From assembly GCA_001443005.1 (NCBI GenBank), contig LEKQ01000008.1, positions 1 through 64,000 of the forward strand: DNA of 64,000 bases. Reading direction: 5' to 3'. This DNA comes from a bacterium GBS-1. Lineage in GTDB: Bacteria; Synergistota; GBS-1. How positions within the stretch are numbered: position 1 is the stretch's first letter; every line of letters starts with the position of its first letter. The notes under the pieces are model-generated. The model worked only from the letters and a program-made list of their open reading frames with translations. It did not search any database and was not told the DNA's origin. The position numbers and the translations under genes are program-made. Positions 13,878 to 23,557 of this stretch are shown piece after piece.

Positions 13878-15072
13878 TTACTTTCTCCTAAGGAAAGTTA
13901 AAGCAAGCGGAAGAAGGAGAAGAAGACCTGCGATCGACCCCTCACCCGAGGAGCATCCTCCACCTCCGCCGGAAGGAGGTGGCATAGTGTAGGAGCTCAC
14001 CAAAGCCTTAAGAGAGAAGTTGCCGTACCCATAACTACTATAGTAGTTATAAAGGTCCTCCCACATTGCCCCATCAGGGCTTACGAAGCTTTCACCCGGT
14101 AAGATCGTAACGTTGCTTGAAACACCGGGAATCCGATATTCTATTCCCAGGGGGTAGGCACCAGGACCGCTGGGCCTAAGCTCAGCCACAATGACGAAGC
14201 TCTCACCCGCACTTAAACTCACAGGAGAATCAAACGGTAAGGTATAGTACCCCATGCTTGATACACGGGTACTAAGGGTATAAGAGGGTGGGTCCACACC
14301 TACCCTCGGAGGAGTAGACCTGTTTTTGTAGACCCTTATCGTGCAATCCACATAGCCTCCCCCCACGTCACCGATAGAAATAACAACCCCTTCAAGATAT
14401 CCCCTTTCGCTTGTCTGAAAGACGTTAGCTCCGTAGATCTTACTACTCCCAGAGAACCTCAATCCCGTATACATCCCTAAAGGATCGTGGTAAAGAACCC
14501 TAAAGTCTCCGTAATTTATATCATCATCGTCAATGAAGTAAGCTACGTAATCAGAAGCCACGTACAGGTCATCATAGGCTTTCAAGTATAGGCCCATCTC
14601 CTTTTGAAAGATAGGCCATGACCTTAAGGACATTACCTCCTTTATTCCAAGGGTCATCATAACCACACCTGTTAATCAGGTTCCTCTCAGAAAAATCATA
14701 ATAGCTTCCGCTAAAGCGCAAGATGTGAGACTCAAGGGATCCAAGCGAGGCAAAGGCCCAGCAAGTTCCATAGTCACCTTGGTCCTTAACTGAAGTGACA
14801 TAACCATAGGTCCTTAGGTCATACCTTGACGGAAGAGATACCTTAGCCTTAAAACCCTCCTTCTTGTGCTTTCCAATATCGATGGGAAGGGGCATAAAAC
14901 CATAGCTCTTTTCGCCAGATTTAATCTTAATCAAATACTCTACAAAATCGGGGTTAAGCGGGGCGCTTTCAAGCTTCACCTCCCCAAAGGAGGGCGAAAC
15001 AACAAGGCTCAATAGCAAAACTGCCACCACAAACCCAATAAACCTTCTCAAAGGAAAGACCCCCTTTCTCAT
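13878..15072 (-). pseudogene. Papain-like (C1) cysteine peptidase with Synerg-CTERM anchor, broken
   Basis: Two overlapping frames together make one interrupted gene. The first (14572-15072) has a signal peptide, LPSRYDLRTYGYVTSVKDQG and the catalytic-Cys motif YGTCWAFASLGSLE, then stops after GDGPILES. The second frame resumes at YDDLYVASDYVAYF, which is the end of a C1 domain, and runs through a beta-rich lectin-like domain (YDPLG, GANVF) to a C terminus GGGGGCSSGEGS plus hydrophobic stretch and LRRK. The catalytic His (NHAV-type) and Asn (NSWG-type) segments, roughly 130-150 residues, are absent. I read this as an internal deletion with frameshift near 14575. The C-terminal signal is typical of Synergistota sorting tags. 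Intact homologues would be secreted surface proteases. Confidence 0.72.
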
Positions 15073-15485
15073 TTCACCCGAAGGGTGAGGTGAAAGACCC
15101 TGTCTGGAGGCTTAAAGCTCTCCCAGGGTCTACGATAAACGAGCTTAACCTTAGCTTTACCTGAAGCAACGGCTCTGAGGAAAAAGACGCGAAGGTTTTC
15201 TCCACCCAGCATACCAGGAGGAGAAAGTTTTACACTTTCACTACTTAAAAAGAGGAGCCTATCAAGATCCAGCTCCACTACCTCCCAAAGGTATCCCGCA
15301 GTCTCAACCTCCCGCAAGAGTATCACAACAACATCTCCCTTGGCCACTTCCACCTCCCTTCCAGAATCGGACTCCACAAAGGCCAAAACGTTAAACTCAG
15401 AAAAAGCCCAGGAGAAAGAACCAGGGAAAAGAAACCTCACAAACAATAGCAGCAAAGCAAATAAACATACAAAAATTTTTCGCAT
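15069..15485 (-). CDS. Chagasin-family (I42) cysteine peptidase inhibitor, secreted
   Basis: A 138-residue protein with a signal peptide (hydrophobic about residues 5-28), then the chagasin/ICP fold: loop 2 as ETAGYLWEV (family NPTTGxxW), the GGENLRVFFLRAVASGKAKVKL strand region and the final RRPWES motif (family RPWE). Such inhibitors block papain-like peptidases. It overlaps the peptidase remnant by 4 bases, so inhibitor and protease were translationally coupled before the protease decayed. It has an extended -10 promoter after the flagellin terminator. Family call is from the three loops; the target is inferred from context. Confidence 0.82.
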   Translation of the reverse strand: MRKIFVCLFALLLLFVRFLFPGSFSWAFSEFNVLAFVESDSGREVEVAKGDVVVILLREVETAGYLWEVVELDLDRLLFLSSESVKLSPPGMLGGENLRVFFLRAVASGKAKVKLVYRRPWESFKPPDRVFHLTLRVK

Positions 15486-15595: not shown

Positions 15596-18115
15596 CTATC
15601 TTAGAAGCTGAAGAACAGACTGGGGAAGTTGATTCGCCTGAGCGAGCATAGCCGTACCTGACTGGTGAAGAATCTGAAGCCTGACAAATTCCATCATCTC
15701 TTGAGCTATGTCAGCGTCCCTTATCCTGGACTCCGCCGCTTGAACGTTAACCTCCATTATGTTCAGGTTTTTAATGGTATGCTCCAAGCGATTCTGAAAG
15801 GCACCAAGCTTGGAGCGAGCAGTTGAAACCTGCTCTAAAGCCTTAGTAACCTTTTCTATGGCTAATTCGGCATTTTCCCTAGTTAACACAGTTAGATCTG
15901 ATATCCCAAGTCCATCAGTATTAAGGGAATCTATATCTATTCTCATAAGCTCGTTCTCGTTAGGACCTATGTGGAGGAAAAGGGTTCCCGATGCATCAAC
16001 CCTTATATCAGCTTCATCCCACCTTTTACCATCCATATCAAAGGCAAGGCCAAGTGGCATAAGAGTGTAGTTAACGTTGGTTGGAGTATAATACTTATAA
16101 TCCTTTATCTTCTTCTCAAGAACCACATGGGCTCCTCTTCCTTCTATTATCAAGGTATCTGGACTGTCTATGCCATAGGAGTTTCCGTTCTCGTCCTTGG
16201 ATGGAACCCTAACCTTAACGTTGGTTCCAGAAGATGCTATCGTTCCATCCTCTATACCCTCGGTCGGATCGCTTAACCCTAACCAGTTTAATATATCTGC
16301 GTTCCCCTCAACTATTATCTTACTCGAGGGATCTCCAGAAGCCTGAATCAAGAAGATATAGCTATCAGGACTACCCGTCCCCTCATCCCTATTGTAAGCC
16401 TTAACGTTAGTGTAAGCTGAAAGATTATTTATCTTCCTTATGACAGCTGATAGGGTATCCGATGCATCCACATCGATCCTAACACCGTTTATGTATATAG
16501 CACCAGTAAGAGGGGCAGTACCCGAAACCGGGCTTGACCCCATTACCCATCTTCTTGGGTCATACCTCGTGTCATCATGAGCCCAGTGGGTCTTAAAGCC
16601 TATGGCCTCAAGGAAAGTGCTATTCGATCCCCCCACAAGATCCCTATCCTCAAGCTCTATCTTACCCCCAGGACTTGAGGTCAAAACTATATAAGCTCTA
16701 TAGTCTCCGCCACCGGCATCATAAGTTACGAGATTGGCAGTAACCCCGGTCTCAGAGGACTTAGCGTTTATGGCGTTAATTACATCGTTTAGATCAATAT
16801 CATCCGCATTCCCATCGCTATCGAGATCTCTAGTCGTAACGTTTATCTCAACGCCGTTAACGTAAAAGGCGTAGGTAGTCCCAGTAGTACCAGTGGTGTT
16901 ATCAAAACCCAAAAGATAGGAAGTATTCGTATCATCCACATCTAAATCGAATCCCTGCATATTCATTTGGGTAGAACTTACTCTGGTGGTGTTAAAGCCT
17001 ATCGCCTGGAGATCTAAACCGTACCTAGTTAATCCCCCTATAGTCTCGGCATCCTCCTCTATCACAACGTTTCTCTCGGCTCCCTGGGCTGTTATTCGAA
17101 TATACTGGCGCCCTCCGATGTTAAGGAGCTCCGCCCAAACCTGACCTCCCATCTGAAGGTTTATCCTATCAACCACATCCTGCCACGTTGTAGAACCGCT
17201 TAAATCGACGGTCGTTCCGTTTATCTTTATACGCATATCGCTTAAAGACGCGAAAGTTGGACCTGTCCCAGCAAGCTCGTTGCTTAAGACCGTGGGAACC
17301 GAACCGAAACCAAGGTCTTGAAGGAGAGCCTGGCTCCCAGAGAGAACTATCCTCTTCTCAGAACCGGCCTCGGTCTGAACGAGCCTTAAGTGGCCGTTAG
17401 CCCTTTCAGCCTTAACCCCCGTATTATGCGCCTTTTCGTTTATCTTGTCTATAACATACTGAAGCTTGTCTAAAGCAGCTGAGAACTCGGTTGAGTCAAG
17501 GTGAACTGCCACACCGTTTATCACTATCTCACCGGTATGGATCCTATCGAGGATAGATATGTTAGTTACACCTGAAAGCTCGGCTCTGCTCGCCTCTTGG
17601 TATATTTTAACCTTATAGGTACCGGGTTGAGTTGAGGGCGACGCAGTCATGTTATAAACATAGGCGTTCCCCCCAACCTGATTGATTATGAAGGAAAGTT
17701 CTCCCGTTAGAAGCTTCCTCGTGTTAAACTGGGTGCTTTCACCTATCCTGTCTATCTCAGCTTTTAGCTGATCTATCTCCTTTTGGATCTGCTCTCTATC
17801 GTAAGAGGTACAAGTATCGTTTGCAGCCTGAATAGCCAACTCCCTTATCCTGTGAAGTATAGCTTGAACCTCATCAAGCGCCCCCTCAGCAGTCTGAATC
17901 AGAGAAATGCCATCCTGTGCATTCCTCGCCGCCTGATGTATGCTCCTTATCTGAGAGCGCATTTTCTCAGAGATCGCTAAACCTGCGGCATCATCGGCTG
18001 CGCGGTTTATCCTTAAACCAGAGGAGAGCCTTTCGAGGCTCGTCTGTAGCTGACCCGAGGTAATGGTCAGCTGCCTGTAGGCTTCCATTGCCGCTATATT
18101 GTGGTTTATCCTCAT
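15596..18115 (-). CDS. Flagellin, large form with four flagellin-IN repeats
   Basis: An 839-residue flagellin, well above the usual 270-500. Conserved D0/D1 ends are present: residues 1-140 (MRINHNIAAMEAYRQL, SSGLRINRAADDAAGLAISE) and the last 90 (ESRIRDADIAQEMMEFVRLQIL ending SVLQLLR). Between them four repeats of the flagellin-IN (PF07196) type lie at about 196-260, 294-355, 415-490 and 538-604, each with an INGxxV strand, a helix DxINxK and a final (L/A)(L/I)GF. Repeat 3 contains an EF-hand-like loop, Asp430-432-434, Gly435, Asp438, Asp441. The product forms the filament; the repeats should project as outer domains. A sigma-28 promoter and a complex leader precede it. Confidence 0.95.
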   Translation of the reverse strand: MRINHNIAAMEAYRQLTITSGQLQTSLERLSSGLRINRAADDAAGLAISEKMRSQIRSIHQAARNAQDGISLIQTAEGALDEVQAILHRIRELAIQAANDTCTSYDREQIQKEIDQLKAEIDRIGESTQFNTRKLLTGELSFIINQVGGNAYVYNMTASPSTQPGTYKVKIYQEASRAELSGVTNISILDRIHTGEIVINGVAVHLDSTEFSAALDKLQYVIDKINEKAHNTGVKAERANGHLRLVQTEAGSEKRIVLSGSQALLQDLGFGSVPTVLSNELAGTGPTFASLSDMRIKINGTTVDLSGSTTWQDVVDRINLQMGGQVWAELLNIGGRQYIRITAQGAERNVVIEEDAETIGGLTRYGLDLQAIGFNTTRVSSTQMNMQGFDLDVDDTNTSYLLGFDNTTGTTGTTYAFYVNGVEINVTTRDLDSDGNADDIDLNDVINAINAKSSETGVTANLVTYDAGGGDYRAYIVLTSSPGGKIELEDRDLVGGSNSTFLEAIGFKTHWAHDDTRYDPRRWVMGSSPVSGTAPLTGAIYINGVRIDVDASDTLSAVIRKINNLSAYTNVKAYNRDEGTGSPDSYIFLIQASGDPSSKIIVEGNADILNWLGLSDPTEGIEDGTIASSGTNVKVRVPSKDENGNSYGIDSPDTLIIEGRGAHVVLEKKIKDYKYYTPTNVNYTLMPLGLAFDMDGKRWDEADIRVDASGTLFLHIGPNENELMRIDIDSLNTDGLGISDLTVLTRENAELAIEKVTKALEQVSTARSKLGAFQNRLEHTIKNLNIMEVNVQAAESRIRDADIAQEMMEFVRLQILHQSGTAMLAQANQLPQSVLQLLR

Positions 18116-18174
18116 AAGTCCTCACCCCATCCGTGTAGTCTACCGCATCCTTGCGCTTCTTGATTTATCCTCAT
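18112..18174 (-). CDS. 20-codon upstream ORF in the flagellin leader
   Basis: An ATG at 18174 opens a 20-residue frame beginning MRIN (same first four residues as flagellin, with the DNA ATGAGGATAAA repeated) and ending in TGA that overlaps the flagellin ATG as ATGA. It contains both hairpins and the flagellin ribosome-binding site. No strong ribosome-binding site precedes it, so it may be a coupled leader peptide or a chance frame. Confidence 0.35.
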   Translation of the reverse strand: MRINQEAQGCGRLHGWGEDL

Positions 18175-18195
18175 CCGTGAGGACTTCTCTTCACT
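18116..18195 (-). promoter_or_regulatory. Flagellin mRNA leader with CsrA-like GGA hairpins and anti-SD
   Basis: In the predicted transcript, AAGUCCUCAC (18177-18186) is perfectly complementary over 10 bases to GUGAGGACUU (18116-18125), which contains the flagellin Shine-Dalgarno. The same CCUCA also forms hairpin CCUCA-CGGA-UGAGG (18169-18182). A second hairpin CGCA-AGGA-UGCG lies at 18144-18155, and a third GGAUG at 18130-18134 runs into the Shine-Dalgarno. GGA in a small loop is the CsrA recognition element, and csrA and fliW are the two upstream genes. Confidence 0.7.
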
Positions 18196-18200
18196 TATCT

Positions 18201-18228
18201 TTATCGGCAAGGGCGAGGACTTACTTTA
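18201..18228 (-). promoter_or_regulatory. Sigma-28 (FliA) promoter of flagellin
   Basis: TAAAGTAA (18221-18228), 12 bases, GCCGATAA (18201-18208) on the minus strand; the consensus is TAAAGTTT-N11-GCCGATAA. The spacing is one base longer than consensus, as in the flgM promoter of this window. Confidence 0.8.
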
Positions 18229-18234
18229 GATAAA

Positions 18235-18492
18235 TTAATCCTTTTTCTTCTTAAGCCTCTGAAGTTCCTTCACAACGCTCTCCTCAATCTTCTCCTCGAC
18301 TTGGGCTGCCATCTGAGCGGCAAGAATGTTCTCCCTAACTATAGCCTCATAAACTTCCTTCCTGTGAACGGGGACCTTCTTAGGAGCTTCTATGCCTATC
18401 CTGACCTGATCCCCTCTTATCTCGAGGATCTTTATCTCTATATCATCGCCTATCATTATGCTCTGATTGACCTTCCTGCTTAAGACGAGCAC
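18235..18492 (-). CDS. csrA: Carbon storage regulator CsrA
   Basis: An 85-residue CsrA, an RNA-binding dimer that recognises GGA in hairpin loops. The start [24 protein letters not shown] is standard, as is [21 protein letters not shown]; the C-terminal extension rich in Glu and Lys (to KKKKD) is longer than in E. coli CsrA but common in fliW-containing bacteria. It lies between fliW and flagellin, the arrangement of the B. subtilis CsrA-FliW-Hag circuit: free flagellin titrates FliW, which releases CsrA to repress flagellin translation. The start is GTG. Confidence 0.96.
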
Positions 18493-18494
18493 GA

Positions 18495-18932
18495 TTAAGT
18501 TCCTCCTTCCGAGGGAAAGAGGGGATAGCGAACAGGATAATCCTCATTTAAAGCTATAACCTGCTTGGCCTTCCTATTCTTGGCGTTAACAACTATAGGC
18601 GCCTTCATGTTCACCGTTGCCCCTCTTGGGTTCGTCCTGGGGATCACCATCACGAGAAAGATCACGGCATCAACCGGATCCCTAAGCTCTATATCCTCAA
18701 GGTCGGAATCGCTTATATCAACGCTAAAATTAGGGAAAAGTTCGAAAGGATTGATTATAGGCAAGGCTACCTGAGGCTCATCTATGGACTGAAACCACCT
18801 TATAAGCTGACCTTCTTCTCCTACTATGAAGAACCTTTTCAGCTCGGGAAAGCCTATCAAACCATGAGGCATATATATTATCTTATCCTCGGAAACCTCT
18901 ATCTCCCCAAACCTAAGGGTGTTTATCTTCAA
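18495..18932 (-). CDS. fliW: Flagellar assembly factor FliW
   Basis: A 145-residue FliW with the family pattern [47 protein letters not shown] and [23 protein letters not shown]. FliW binds both flagellin and CsrA and relieves CsrA repression when flagellin has been exported. It ends 2 bases before csrA, so the two are coupled. Length is normal. Confidence 0.95.
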
Positions 18933-18953: not shown

Positions 18954-20162
18954 CTACTCGAGGAAATCAAGCAAGCTCGTCTGAATGATCCGCGCACCTG
19001 CCCTTAAAGCTGATTGGTAGATTGCTTGTTGATTGCTCAGGTTCATAACCACTTCAGCGATGTCAACATCCTCTATCTTAGAAAGAAGGGATGTAAGCTG
19101 AACCTTATTATCCTCAAACCTACTCTTTGTAGCCTCTAACCTGTTGACCTTGGCCCCAACTCTAGCCCTGACCCTTAAAAGATGGTCAAGGTATTCGTCA
19201 AGCTCACTGAGCCTCTCTCCCGAAAGCGATGAGCTTCTATTGTAACGTAAATCCTCACTTATCTTTTGCAATATATCAAATATGTCAAGGTCTCCAACGT
19301 AAACCATCTCCTCTCTCTTGTTAAGCATCCCAAGATCTTTAAGAACGGTTCCAACGGAGTCAGAGAGGCTCAACCGCTCATTTCCTTTGCTCTGTATAAC
19401 AAGCTTAACTCCTATACCATCAGGAACAACATACGCCCGGAGGGACCCACCTGCCCTCAAGTTTATCCTATCAGCTATTATAGAGACGTTAGCTCCCGCT
19501 GGCACATCTACGCTGTAAACTCTGTTACCCACCCTTATGGTAAAAATACCGGGACCGAATATAGAAGCTGAGGAGTGCATATCGCTTTCAAGCCTATACT
19601 CTATCCTTTGGGTTGCAAAAACCTGATTACCAGGAACATTAACTACTATGGTTTCCCCACTCTCTATTTCCCAGGCCATCTCCCCCTCATCACCCTGATA
19701 AATCGCAACGCTAGCCTGACCCAAGGCATAGGGTTTGCTTTGGGTCTTAAAACCGCTAAATATATACCTTCCCCCAAGCGAGGTATTGGCTATCTGTAAA
19801 AGCTCCTCTCTGAGCTTATCTATCTGATCGGCTATGGCCTCTCTATCAACCTGAGCTAAAGTATCGTTTGCTCCCTGAATTACCCTTTCCCTGACGATGT
19901 GAATTATGGAGGTTGCCTGATCAAGCGCCGACTCCGTAGCGCTCAACCAAGCTATCGCCTCGTCCATATTTTTTGAGAACTGTCCATTCTCATTAAGCAC
20001 CCTGTTTAACCTCATGCTCCTAACGGAACCGACAGGGTCCTCCTCAGGAAGGTCGAACTTCTTACCCGTAGACGCCTGATGCTGAAGCTTAAGGAGCCTA
20101 TCCCTATTACCCATAAGATCTGTCAAAAAGACGCTCGTGAAGACCTTATCGCTAACTCTCAT
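18954..20162 (-). CDS. flgL: Flagellar hook-associated protein 3
   Basis: A protein of about 402 residues, FlgL (HAP3), forming the lower part of the hook-filament junction. The N-terminal flagellin-like helix (SVFLTDLMGNRDRLLKLQHQAS, then GKKFDLPEEDP) and C-terminal helix (IEDVDIAEVVMNLSNQQAIYQSALRAGARI, written in part) are the family marks. The ATG at 20162 has AGGTGA 8 bases upstream and is preferred over the GTG 12 bases earlier. It overlaps the flgK stop region. Confidence 0.93.
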   Translation of the reverse strand: MRVSDKVFTSVFLTDLMGNRDRLLKLQHQASTGKKFDLPEEDPVGSVRSMRLNRVLNENGQFSKNMDEAIAWLSATESALDQATSIIHIVRERVIQGANDTLAQVDREAIADQIDKLREELLQIANTSLGGRYIFSGFKTQSKPYALGQASVAIYQGDEGEMAWEIESGETIVVNVPGNQVFATQRIEYRLESDMHSSASIFGPGIFTIRVGNRVYSVDVPAGANVSIIADRINLRAGGSLRAYVVPDGIGVKLVIQSKGNERLSLSDSVGTVLKDLGMLNKREEMVYVGDLDIFDILQKISEDLRYNRSSSLSGERLSELDEYLDHLLRVRARVGAKVNRLEATKSRFEDNKVQLTSLLSKIEDVDIAEVVMNLSNQQAIYQSALRAGARIIQTSLLDFLE

Positions 20163-20170
20163 ACCAAAAA

Positions 20171-22267
20171 TCACCTACCAACCAAACCGAGATTGTTAAC
20201 TATCCTTTCATAGACCTGATCCATAGCGTTTATGAATCTAGCGGCCGCTGAAAAGGCATGCTGATACTTTATTAGCTCAGTCATCTCCTCATCCAAAGAA
20301 ACACCCATGACCTCTTGACGCCTGTTATCTATCTGCTTAACCAAAAGCTCCTGATTAGAGCTCATCCTGCTCGCTTCCTGAGACTCGACTCCTAATCTCG
20401 CTATGACGGCTTCAAGAAACTGGTTTAGGTTAACCGTCCCGCTTCTCATTACCCTTCTATACCTAACGGAAGAAAGCTTGTATGCTATTGAACCATCGCC
20501 AGGCCCCGCATTTTCCCCATCTATATCTCCAGCAGTAGCTATTAACTCAGGAAACCTATCTATAGCGCTTGATAGAGAAAGAAGCTTAGATGCTCCCTCA
20601 ACCTTGTAAATCTCATCGAAGAAGTTAAAACCGTTCTTGACCTGATTCAAGCCATAACCAGCCCTATGCTGAGCGTTAAACTCCTTCACAAGGACATAAG
20701 AGAGCTCATCAAGCCATTTTAAATAGTCAACCAATATGCCGTCCCTCGCCTCAAGATATCCTAAAAGCTCTCCATTCTGTGCTGGAAAGTAGGGCCTGAA
20801 GGTCGTATTTCCCAACCCCTTAAGCTCAAAAAGCATGCCATCGACGACGGTTCCATATTCACCAGTGGAAACCCTCTTAGCATCTCTAAAGCGATTGGTC
20901 CAACTCCTATAGAGCTCACCATTTACGCTAAATATGGCATCCTGAGGAGCCCATATATCATTCGTGGAACTTCCATCCCAAAGACCGAGACGTTGAGCGA
21001 TGCTCGCCATATCTCCAAGGATCGTTATCTTATAATCCTCACCCAGATGATTGCTTCTAAGGACTAAGTAAAATCTTCCCGCATCATTTCTCGCTATCGA
21101 TGCAGTGAGCCAGTGCTCGTGAACGGTCGGGTAGGAAGAAAATCTCTCATTATAGAAGGCCGCGTTAATCTTATTCATAATCGTTCTTAAGGAATCTTCG
21201 CCATCTATATGTATGCTAACTGCCGGTCCACTATCAACCCTGATACATATATCTCCCCTCTCATTCCTATCAAGCCAACCCAAAGTATAGAACGTTATGT
21301 CCTCGCTTACCACGGAGGCAGTAGGGCTCCCTATCATATGAGGGAGCTCATTTGCAAGTTGAACAACGCTCACCATGTAGCTCGTATTCCCAACTATCGG
21401 AGAAGCGTAACCTATAGCCACATCCGAGTTTGAGGAGAAGCTTAGAGGCTCAAAATCCCATCTTACATCATACATGCCATTATTAGCCGGGTTAGGAATG
21501 AGCACAAGGTGATGCCTTATACCCCCCCTGACCACATCAACACCGTTCACTACCAAGATAACTCCACCGCTGGGGTCCTCAAAAACATCCACATCTATCA
21601 TCTTGGAAAGCTTCTCTATGAGTAAATCCTGCTTATCCAAAAGATCGTTGGGGTTATCTTTAACCCCTTTAACCATCTGAATCTGGCGATTGAGATCAGC
21701 TATCTGATCTATATAGGAGTTGATCTCCGAGACTTTCATCGCTACCTCTTCGTTCAAGTCAGCCCTATAGGCACTCAACTGATTTGAGATGTATCTAACT
21801 AGACGAGTGAAGGTTAACGCCTTCTCTCTAACGCTCTCCCTGAAGGCTGGGTCTTCTGGGTTCACGTGAAGGGACTGCAAGGCCTCCCAGAACTCATCGA
21901 AAGCTTGTCTTATGCTTGAATCAGATGGCTCATTGAAAAACTCCTCAATGCGCTTAAAGGTTATGCTCCTAACATCCCACCTGCCCCAGGTCTGAAGCTC
22001 CTCTCTATACTGAAGGTCGAGGAATCTATCCCTCAACCGAGCTATCTGCTCTATCGTAACGCCCGTTCCGAGCTGCCCAGGCGTGGCGGGTCTATTTAAG
22101 GCAGGGTCGGTATAAGGATACATGGTGGTTAATTCTACCCTCTGCCGGGAGTATCCTTCCGTCCCGGCGTTAGAGACGTTGTGGCCCGTCACCTCAAGCC
22201 CACGCTTCTGAGCGAATATAGCTCTCTTTCCAAGCTCTATTCCAAAGAAGCTGCCCGGGTCCCCCAC
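20171..22267 (-). CDS. flgK: Flagellar hook-associated protein 1
   Basis: A 698-residue FlgK (HAP1), longer than the 550-residue norm through insertions in the central domain. N-terminal rod-type motif FFGIELGKRAIFAQKRGLEVTGHNVSNAGTEGYSRQ is clear in pieces, and the C-terminal YQHAFSAAARFINAMDQVYERI helix is standard. It joins the hook to FlgL. The start is GTG after GGGAGG. It lies in the usual order flgN-flgK-flgL. Confidence 0.94.
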   Translation of the reverse strand: MGDPGSFFGIELGKRAIFAQKRGLEVTGHNVSNAGTEGYSRQRVELTTMYPYTDPALNRPATPGQLGTGVTIEQIARLRDRFLDLQYREELQTWGRWDVRSITFKRIEEFFNEPSDSSIRQAFDEFWEALQSLHVNPEDPAFRESVREKALTFTRLVRYISNQLSAYRADLNEEVAMKVSEINSYIDQIADLNRQIQMVKGVKDNPNDLLDKQDLLIEKLSKMIDVDVFEDPSGGVILVVNGVDVVRGGIRHHLVLIPNPANNGMYDVRWDFEPLSFSSNSDVAIGYASPIVGNTSYMVSVVQLANELPHMIGSPTASVVSEDITFYTLGWLDRNERGDICIRVDSGPAVSIHIDGEDSLRTIMNKINAAFYNERFSSYPTVHEHWLTASIARNDAGRFYLVLRSNHLGEDYKITILGDMASIAQRLGLWDGSSTNDIWAPQDAIFSVNGELYRSWTNRFRDAKRVSTGEYGTVVDGMLFELKGLGNTTFRPYFPAQNGELLGYLEARDGILVDYLKWLDELSYVLVKEFNAQHRAGYGLNQVKNGFNFFDEIYKVEGASKLLSLSSAIDRFPELIATAGDIDGENAGPGDGSIAYKLSSVRYRRVMRSGTVNLNQFLEAVIARLGVESQEASRMSSNQELLVKQIDNRRQEVMGVSLDEEMTELIKYQHAFSAAARFINAMDQVYERIVNNLGLVGR

Positions 22268-22271
22268 TTTC

Positions 22272-22769
22272 TCATACCTCCCTCTGAAAGAGAGAAAAAG
22301 AGGGAGAGAGCTTACCCTTACCGTAAGTCGTCTTAGATAGGGAATTCATAAGAGCATCTATAAGGTAGGAGATATACTTTAGCGTTGATTCCACAAGATA
22401 ACGATTAGTTTCATTGATCTCCTTAAGCTTCTCTAAAACAGCTTTAAGGTCTCGAGCTTTCTCCTCAAGCGGACGAAACTCCTCTTCACTAAAAAAGGCC
22501 TTAAGGTCACTTAACTTAAGGTCGCTTTCCTTCAATCCGACCATCTGGGCTATCTTCGCGACCTCGGCTAACCTCTTCGACTCCAGCCTTTCAGCCTCAA
22601 CTATAAGAGGTCTTTCCTCCCCTATTATTCGAGCCAAAAGATCGGTGTTATTCTTTAAAACCGCTTCTTTCTTCTCCAATGAAAGGTTACAAAGCTTAGT
22701 ATAAAGGGAAAGCTCCTCCTCTAAAAGAGAGGTTAACGCTCCTAAACTTATTCTATTTTCTCCACTCAT
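22272..22769 (-). CDS. flgN: FlgN-like flagellar export chaperone
   Basis: A protein of about 165 residues, predicted all-helical, of the FlgN type: LTSLLEEELSLYTKLCNLSLEKKEAVLKNN at the start and a long helix to LVESTLKYISYLIDALM. FlgN proteins bind the C-terminal helices of FlgK and FlgL before export. Sequence similarity within the family is low, so the call leans on its position between flgM and flgK. The ATG at 22769, 6 bases after GGGTGAG, is preferred over the GTG at 22775. Confidence 0.8.
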   Translation of the reverse strand: MSGENRISLGALTSLLEEELSLYTKLCNLSLEKKEAVLKNNTDLLARIIGEERPLIVEAERLESKRLAEVAKIAQMVGLKESDLKLSDLKAFFSEEEFRPLEEKARDLKAVLEKLKEINETNRYLVESTLKYISYLIDALMNSLSKTTYGKGKLSPSFSLFQREV

Positions 22770-22771
22770 CT

Positions 22772-23074
22772 TCACTCACCCGAGGGGAAATAGATATCCT
22801 CCAAGAGCTTGCGAGCCACCTGCTTTAAATCTGGCGAGTACTTTCCCTCCTCAAGGAGCCTCTTGATCTCCTCGACCTTTTCCCTCCTTATTTCTGGCGC
22901 AGAGCTTAAGCTTTCCATAGCCACCTTTACCTCGAAAGCTTTAGAAGATAACTCCACCTTATCGCTTAAAGAAGCGACTCCTTCCTTCCCCTCGCTCTTA
23001 ACCTTCCTCTTTACAGGCTTTATTCCCTCAAGATATGCCTTAAATACTTCGCCTACCTTCTTCCCGTAATCCAC
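22772..23074 (-). CDS. flgM: Anti-sigma-28 factor FlgM
   Basis: A 100-residue protein with a variable, basic N-terminal half and a FlgM C-terminal domain: LSDKVELSSKAFEVKVAMESL and REEKVEEIKRLLEEGKYSPDLKQVARKLLE (first residues differ slightly). FlgM holds sigma-28 inactive until it is exported through the finished hook. It has its own sigma-28 promoter, giving the classic feedback loop. GTG start after GGGGGGTGA. Confidence 0.9.
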   Translation of the reverse strand: MDYGKKVGEVFKAYLEGIKPVKRKVKSEGKEGVASLSDKVELSSKAFEVKVAMESLSSAPEIRREKVEEIKRLLEEGKYSPDLKQVARKLLEDIYFPSGE

Positions 23075-23097
23075 AGAGGTTCACCCCCCTCAATTCT

Positions 23098-23125
23098 ATT
23101 TCGGCAAGAGAGGGGGAAGTCTTTA
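23098..23125 (-). promoter_or_regulatory. Sigma-28 promoter of flgM
   Basis: TAAAGACT (23118-23125), 12 bases, GCCGAAAT (23098-23105) on the minus strand. The -35 overlaps the stop of the upstream yvyF-like gene. Confidence 0.75.
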
Positions 23126-23557
23126 TTCCTTTTTTTCCTTTTTCTTAAAGACATCGATTATATACATCTTAGCCCTATCCTCTTTCTCGGTTTCCTTTTC
23201 CAAATCCGCCTGAAGCTTGGTAAGAGAAGCTTGAAGCTCCTTAAGGCACTTGGGACAATACTCACCAGAGCTTATCGGCTCACCACACCTCTTACACCTA
23301 AGCCTTCCCGCAATATCTGTGAACTTAAGTTGGATTCTCCCCTGCCTTATGAACTCAAGTATCTCGTCCTCTTCAACCTCCGTAGCCTCGCTTATCTCCT
23401 TAATTGTAGCCCGAGGGTGATCTCTCAAATAATTGTAAACCTTTTCAAAATCCCGCTCTTCCTCCTCAAGACATTGGGGGCAAACCTTCCTTCCACCGGT
23501 CCAGATGAAGGCGCGCCCACACTTTATGCAGTTAGCCAAACCTGTCAACTCACTCAC
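23123..23557 (-). CDS. YvyF-like flagellar operon zinc-ribbon protein
   Basis: A 144-residue protein of the YvyF flagellar-operon family (TIGR03826). It has two zinc ribbons, CIKCGRAF...CPQC at the start and CKRCGEPI...CPKC near residue 105, around a winged-helix-like segment (VYNYLRDHPRATIKEISEATEVEEDEILEFI, shown in part). The fold suggests DNA or RNA binding; the function is not settled. It stands just before flgM, as in Bacillus and Clostridium. Confidence 0.82.
   Translation of the reverse strand: MSELTGLANCIKCGRAFIWTGGRKVCPQCLEEEERDFEKVYNYLRDHPRATIKEISEATEVEEDEILEFIRQGRIQLKFTDIAGRLRCKRCGEPISSGEYCPKCLKELQASLTKLQADLEKETEKEDRAKMYIIDVFKKKEKKE

Follow-up and report, generated by a model that had tools for sequence, protein, structure and literature searches.

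In the intergenic region that separates csrA from a flagellin gene of a Synergistota bacterium, we identified a segment complementary to the flagellin Shine-Dalgarno (SD) sequence, located between the -35 and -10 elements of a sigma-28 promoter. According to our analyses, the translation of flagellin probably depends on where its mRNA starts: RNA reading through from the upstream genes would be silenced by this distal anti-SD, whereas RNA initiated at the sigma-28 promoter would escape. The stretch of DNA analysed (hereafter, the window) comprises the first 64,000 nucleotides of contig LEKQ01000008.1 and belongs to a draft genome of 1.8 Mb (G000; completeness, 98.5%), which was compared with three others, namely G001, G002 and G003 (the public MAG 'bacterium 42_11', LGFB01000106), the four of them representing one family and three genera.

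On the minus strand of the window, the genes are arranged in the order comF-like, yvyF, flgM, flgN, flgK, flgL, fliW, csrA and flagellin, an order also known from the surroundings of hag in Bacillus subtilis. The flagellin gene (15596..18115) encodes a protein of 839 aa with matches to PF00669 (1.1e-46) and PF00700 (1.1e-29), and its ATG is located at 18115-18113. Upstream of it are csrA (18235..18492; PF02599, 1.5e-27; TIGR00202), the sole CsrA gene of this genome, whose 85-aa product displays a long C-terminal tail; fliW (18495..18932; PF02623, 2e-38); and flgL, flgK, flgN, flgM and yvyF (18954..23557), the source of the presumed read-through RNA. The csrA stop codon and the flagellin ATG are separated by 119 nt, and no terminator-like site was found on the minus strand of this gap. 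A scan of the window with Rfam 15 yielded no family above the gathering score, ruling out a known RNA family for the leader. On the other side of the flagellin gene, positions 13878-15485 of the same strand harbor an inhibitor gene of the chagasin type (Inhibitor_I42) and, 3' of it, an ORF for a papain-like peptidase, whose profile match ends at position 81 of 220; a lectin-like domain is encoded by an overlapping ORF in another frame, and the peptidase reads as frame-broken.

The promoter, a consensus sigma-28 promoter directly 3' of csrA, was recognized by pattern matching on the minus strand, with a -35 element TAAAG (18224..18228) located 6 nt after the csrA stop codon and identical in the four genomes, and a -10 element GCCGATAA (18201..18208); the usual spacing would place the transcription start around 18193-18195. 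The promoter is kept in all four genomes. The generic TAAA-N-CCGATA pattern displayed no excess over its reversed control in these genomes, so the pattern was dropped as proof of sigma-28 dependence, and the promoter call rests on its position, its conservation and the flagellin gene downstream. Regarding the ribosome binding site, the best match to the 16S anti-SD is GGGGUGA (18122..18128, minus strand), 6 nt 5' of the ATG; the assembly contains no 16S gene and a standard 16S 3' end was assumed. In many flagellin leaders of the phylum (L131, L134, L135, L139, L143, L146, L147, L156, L158 and L166), a strong SD-like GGAGGTG is found soon after the predicted sigma-28 start, approximately 60-150 nt 5' of the real ATG and with no evident gene behind it; the window leader has no such sequence. 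These upstream elements are reminiscent of the 5' stabilising SDs present on Bacillus mRNAs.

The distal anti-SD, UAAGUCCUCGCCC (18211..18223, minus strand), was recognized within the promoter spacer by folding, duplex energy and the alignment of the four genomes. Its partner, GGGUGAGGACUUA (18115..18127, minus strand), covers the SD and the first base of the start codon, forming a helix of 13 bp that is lengthened to 15 bp in the minimum free energy (MFE) fold. The leader is predicted to be unusually stable, with an MFE of -51.1 kcal/mol compared with a mean of -29.9 for shuffled sequences (z -5.78; none of 200 shuffles equally stable), and the distal anti-SD:SD helix is the dominant one, spanning a loop of about 83 nt that contains the CsrA-type hairpins described below, with the first of them (hairpin 1) intact inside. 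In this fold of the read-through RNA, the GG of a GGA adjacent to the SD pairs with the CC of the -10 element. In addition, UUUAUCU on the csrA stop side (18228-18234) pairs with GGAUAAA in flagellin codons 2-4 (18105-18111), an extension of the long helix of which the relatives retain parts only. The predicted spacer:SD duplex reaches -25.3 kcal/mol in the window, a value matched by none of 2000 shuffles, and the four genomes display -25.3, -24.5, -20.9 and -22.0 kcal/mol. In three of the four, 0 to 1 of 2000 shuffled spacers paired as well as the real one; G001, lacking two outer pairs, is a weak case, as its shuffled C-rich spacer paired equally well in 110 of 2000.

Since the distal anti-SD sits between the -35 and -10 elements, only read-through RNA carries it, and the two RNAs are predicted to expose the SD very differently. 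When the fold of the read-through RNA was started at -150 relative to the ATG, the predicted probabilities of the distal helix were 1.00, 1.00, 0.58 and 1.00 at 37 C (window, G002, G001 and G003, respectively), and the SD was unpaired with probabilities of 0.002, 0.027, 0.137 and 0.005, compared with 0.22-0.57 in the sigma-28 RNA of the four genomes at the same temperature. Masking persisted at 65-75 C, and an RNA thermometer was ruled out, the SD of the long RNA being just 4-12% unpaired at 75 C. When the spacers of 12 other flagellin promoters were introduced in silico into the four leaders, the SD was freed in all 48 combinations. In every one of the four genomes, moreover, the modelled SD is masked by a helix with its 5' strand encoded upstream of the late start site, the arrangement characteristic of phage T4 gene e.

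All four genomes have the promoter and the spacer complementarity at an equivalent position. Across their alignment, 48 of 52 cells of the distal pairing are paired, the four unpaired cells being all outer, and within a nine-base spacer core all 36 cells are paired although four of the nine columns vary. A single two-sided change was observed, an outer pair turned from A-U into G-C in G002, and a covariation shuffle test on these four related sequences was not significant (253/500). Identity, on the other hand, was 0.28-0.62 at fourfold-degenerate sites of the neighbouring genes and 0.27-0.73 in the unpaired linker, compared with 0.78-0.89 in the spacer core. Under the divergence measured, the simulated chance of retaining all 27 core cells was 2e-5 to 2e-4, and it reached at most 8e-3 when a much lower divergence was set.

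Among the leaders of the phylum that were compared, the complementarity was specific to this family. In 36 other flagellin leaders, which include those of paralogous (second) flagellins from the family genomes, spacer:SD energies ranged from -1.5 to -11.2 kcal/mol, compared with -20.9 to -25.3 in the family, with one exception (-16.3) in a leader whose promoter call is itself poor. The paralogous flagellin is also located closely 3' of a same-strand gene, yet it has no distal device. A covariance model of the leader searched against 188 genomes of the phylum recovered the four family members only, the next matches having E values of 0.2-1. Among Csr/hag neighbourhoods of other phyla (L063-L100), flagellin was found beside fliW in L064 (Armatimonadetes) only, where the sigma-28-like spacer, judged by eye, is not complementary to the SD. 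As a separate observation, the second flagellin leaders (L131, L132, L134 and L135) harbor a CsrA-type hairpin of 10-11 bp, e.g., GCGCCTTAGGC ACGGAT GCTTAAGGCGT, and in three of these four the CTTAAGG of one hairpin arm occurs again in the sigma-28 spacer.

A conserved spacer could also be explained at the DNA level, and the sequence TCCTCACCC, conserved between the -35 and -10 elements, would be well placed as an operator for a repressor or an activator, its complementarity to the SD being accidental. We regard this explanation as improbable, given that the changes observed in the spacer obey RNA pairing rules (G-U, A-U and G-C), one of them being matched on the SD side, and that an accidental SD complement of 12-13 bp is very unlikely by the shuffling results (0 to 1 of 2000 in three of four genomes). 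Still less credible, to the point of being a marginal candidate, is a role of the long helix as a processing site of the RNase III type that splits the csrA and flagellin messages: the 13-15 bp of the helix plus seven more pairs in the window would provide a substrate, but the conservation of those extra pairs is uneven, and for this enzyme a 13-bp helix is short.

The leader also contains the elements of a CsrA-controlled message. A survey of ANGGAN hairpins identified hairpin 2 (18144..18155, minus strand; CGC AAGGAU GCG, GGA at 18148-18150), and 18 nt separate its GGA from a third one (ACGGAU, 18130..18132, minus strand) located just 5' of the SD, which is kept with the same ungapped spacing in the four genomes. 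Of the 40 leaders surveyed across the phylum, 31 displayed an ANGGAN hairpin no more than 100 nt away from the flagellin ATG, compared with 0.4 expected from shuffles. Most of these hairpins are located around positions -35 to -49, and they suggest a general CsrA control of flagellin in the phylum. Hairpin 2 is likely the counterpart of the upstream site of hag. Of the features of hag-type repression, csrA and fliW are present and linked to flagellin, and a GGA hairpin loop upstream is combined with a GGA at the SD in the four genomes. Beside this hag-like pair, hairpin 1 (18167..18184, minus strand; GGA at 18174-18176, loop ACGGAU, stem of 6-7 bp, -7.7 kcal/mol alone), invariant in the four genomes, is an additional candidate CsrA site.

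The original prediction had described two exclusive structures in this leader, an anti-SD pairing and a CsrA hairpin, and both elements are present where it placed them. On the minus strand, the proximal anti-SD AAGUCCUCAC (18186-18177) forms ten perfect pairs with GUGAGGACUU (18125-18116), a pairing that stops one base short of the flagellin ATG, and the GGA-loop hairpin CCUCACGGAUGAGG occupies 18182-18169. In the window, none of 2000 shuffles of the 11-nt proximal arm paired equally well with the SD region; in the three relatives, the figure was 0-4 of 2000. Part of this match is nevertheless built in, since the hairpin 3' arm UGAGGA resembles the SD GUGAGGA. What the description missed is the second, stronger anti-SD at 18211-18223, which is predicted to dominate the fold of any RNA carrying it. 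The two structures are genuine alternatives to each other on the sigma-28 RNA, differing by no more than about 4.5 kcal/mol; on the read-through RNA no such competition is predicted, as the distal anti-SD occupies the SD while hairpin 1 persists (0.99-1.00 in the four genomes). The energy of the proximal pairing minus that of hairpin 1 on the sigma-28 RNA ranged from -4.5 to +3.7 kcal/mol when the four genomes were modelled at two temperatures with several choices of start and end point, its sign varying among genomes. In the window, G002, G001 and G003, the proximal state accounted for 96, 27, 1 and 3% at 37 C and for 97, 92, 60 and 76% at 65 C. SD masking without CsrA, of the type known in ymdA and phz2, would thus predominate in the window and be nearly absent from G001 and G003 at 37 C, becoming more even at 65 C. 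The covariation across relatives that had been proposed as a check is uninformative and cannot be counted as passed, since the proximal pairing is held in 39 of 40 cells with G-U changes only, no two-sided change occurs and hairpin 1 never varies. The exclusive structures are, therefore, credible in these models on one of the two RNA isoforms only, with an uncertain balance.

These elements could be read in other ways. In the switch originally proposed, CsrA bound to hairpin 1 would block the proximal anti-SD pairing and free the SD, and at a higher occupancy would repress at the SD-proximal GGA. We regard this switch as a less likely candidate: the mutual exclusion of the two structures and the retained pairing speak for it, as do the N of the ANGGA, always C in hairpin 1, as pairing requires, and variable in the other two sites, and the analogues ymdA and phz2. 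On the other side, the pairing displays no two-sided change, the predicted balance flips from one genome to another (proximal state from 96 down to 1% at 37 C), the read-through RNA has no such competition, and the CsrA-type site conserved in the phylum is hairpin 2 (-37) and not hairpin 1 (-63); moreover, since hairpin 1 is invariant, CsrA binding alone accounts for its 5' arm. Somewhat less probable is that the whole leader is a case of hag-type repression, with CsrA bridging hairpin 2 (or hairpin 1) and the SD-proximal GGA, FliW relieving the repression, and the complementarities having no function of their own. The adjacent csrA and fliW, the occurrence of such hairpins in 31 of 40 leaders and the 18-nt spacing are all consistent with it, but it leaves unexplained a spacer:SD complementarity of 9-13 nt maintained in four genomes whose silent sites are close to saturation, as well as the want of complementarity in other flagellin spacers. 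A combined three-state leader is likewise rather unlikely: the spacer anti-SD would tie translation to the promoter, the nearly isoenergetic hairpin and anti-SD on the sigma-28 RNA would let CsrA free or block the SD, and the read-through RNA, untranslated and carrying csrA plus two exposed CsrA hairpins, could buffer free CsrA.

Dependence on the mRNA start is the reading we prefer. In RNA arriving from flgMN-flgKL-fliW-csrA, the distal anti-SD would pair with the SD and the start codon; the SD-proximal GGA would be concealed as well, the CsrA hairpins would remain intact, and with the SD locked this RNA would be silent for flagellin. The sigma-28 RNA would escape the lock, since transcription from this promoter would start beyond the spacer; it would then come under the CsrA-FliW circuit through hairpin 2 and the SD-proximal GGA, as in hag, and perhaps also under a slower competition between hairpin 1 and the proximal anti-SD. 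Flagellin, which among the late products is the most abundant, would consequently be made from sigma-28 RNA only, that is, after the release of FlgM, despite its gene ending an earlier operon, and the presumed benefit would be that no flagellin is produced before FlgM export.

A closely related arrangement is known from phage T4, in which long upstream transcripts of gene e (lysozyme), and also of soc, 49 and I-TevI, bury the SD in a helix, and the late promoter of gene e lies within the DNA encoding the 5' strand of that helix (PMC3014915). The late transcripts are translated because they lack the inhibitory 5' strand; the structure reduces lysozyme synthesis about 100-fold (PMC3014915). The masking of the SD in the long RNA and the promoter inside the 5'-strand DNA are common to both systems, being proven in T4 and predicted here. 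Our case differs in concerning a cellular flagellin gene with a sigma-28 promoter, in the location of the anti-SD exactly in the spacer, and in a long-range helix that encloses about 83 nt with CsrA-type hairpins. With the B. subtilis hag leader, controlled by CsrA and FliW (Yakhnin 2007; Oshiro 2019; reviewed in PMC7652899 and PMC6529632), the family shares fliW and csrA beside the flagellin gene, the GGA hairpin and the GGA at the SD; unlike hag, it displays three conserved ANGGAU sites, not two, plus two anti-SD segments. Activation by SD unmasking has been reported for CsrA/RsmA in ymdA (PMC7492729) and in phz2 and moaA (PMC7652899), and thus the activation originally proposed is not new in kind. 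As in those messages, an SD-masking structure would exclude, or be opened by, the CsrA-bound conformation; unlike them, here it is predicted, involves one RNA isoform only and is combined with an additional repressing site at the SD. The proposed activation rests on near-equal predicted energies and on bases that are conserved and do not covary. In the open-access literature the same device was not found in bacterial flagellin leaders, the trick being described for phage T4 only.

In our models, the promoter-embedded anti-SD is the more important feature of this leader, found so far in this four-genome family only. Flagellin must wait for a finished hook, and many genomes place its gene after flgM-flgK-flgL-fliW-csrA with no terminator in between. 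An anti-SD located between the -35 and -10 elements of a late promoter would offer a simple solution to this problem, as the use of the promoter removes the lock and no extra factor is required. If true, this arrangement would call for caution when leader structures are interpreted without a known start site, and it would mean that bacteria can encode 'which promoter made me' in translation.
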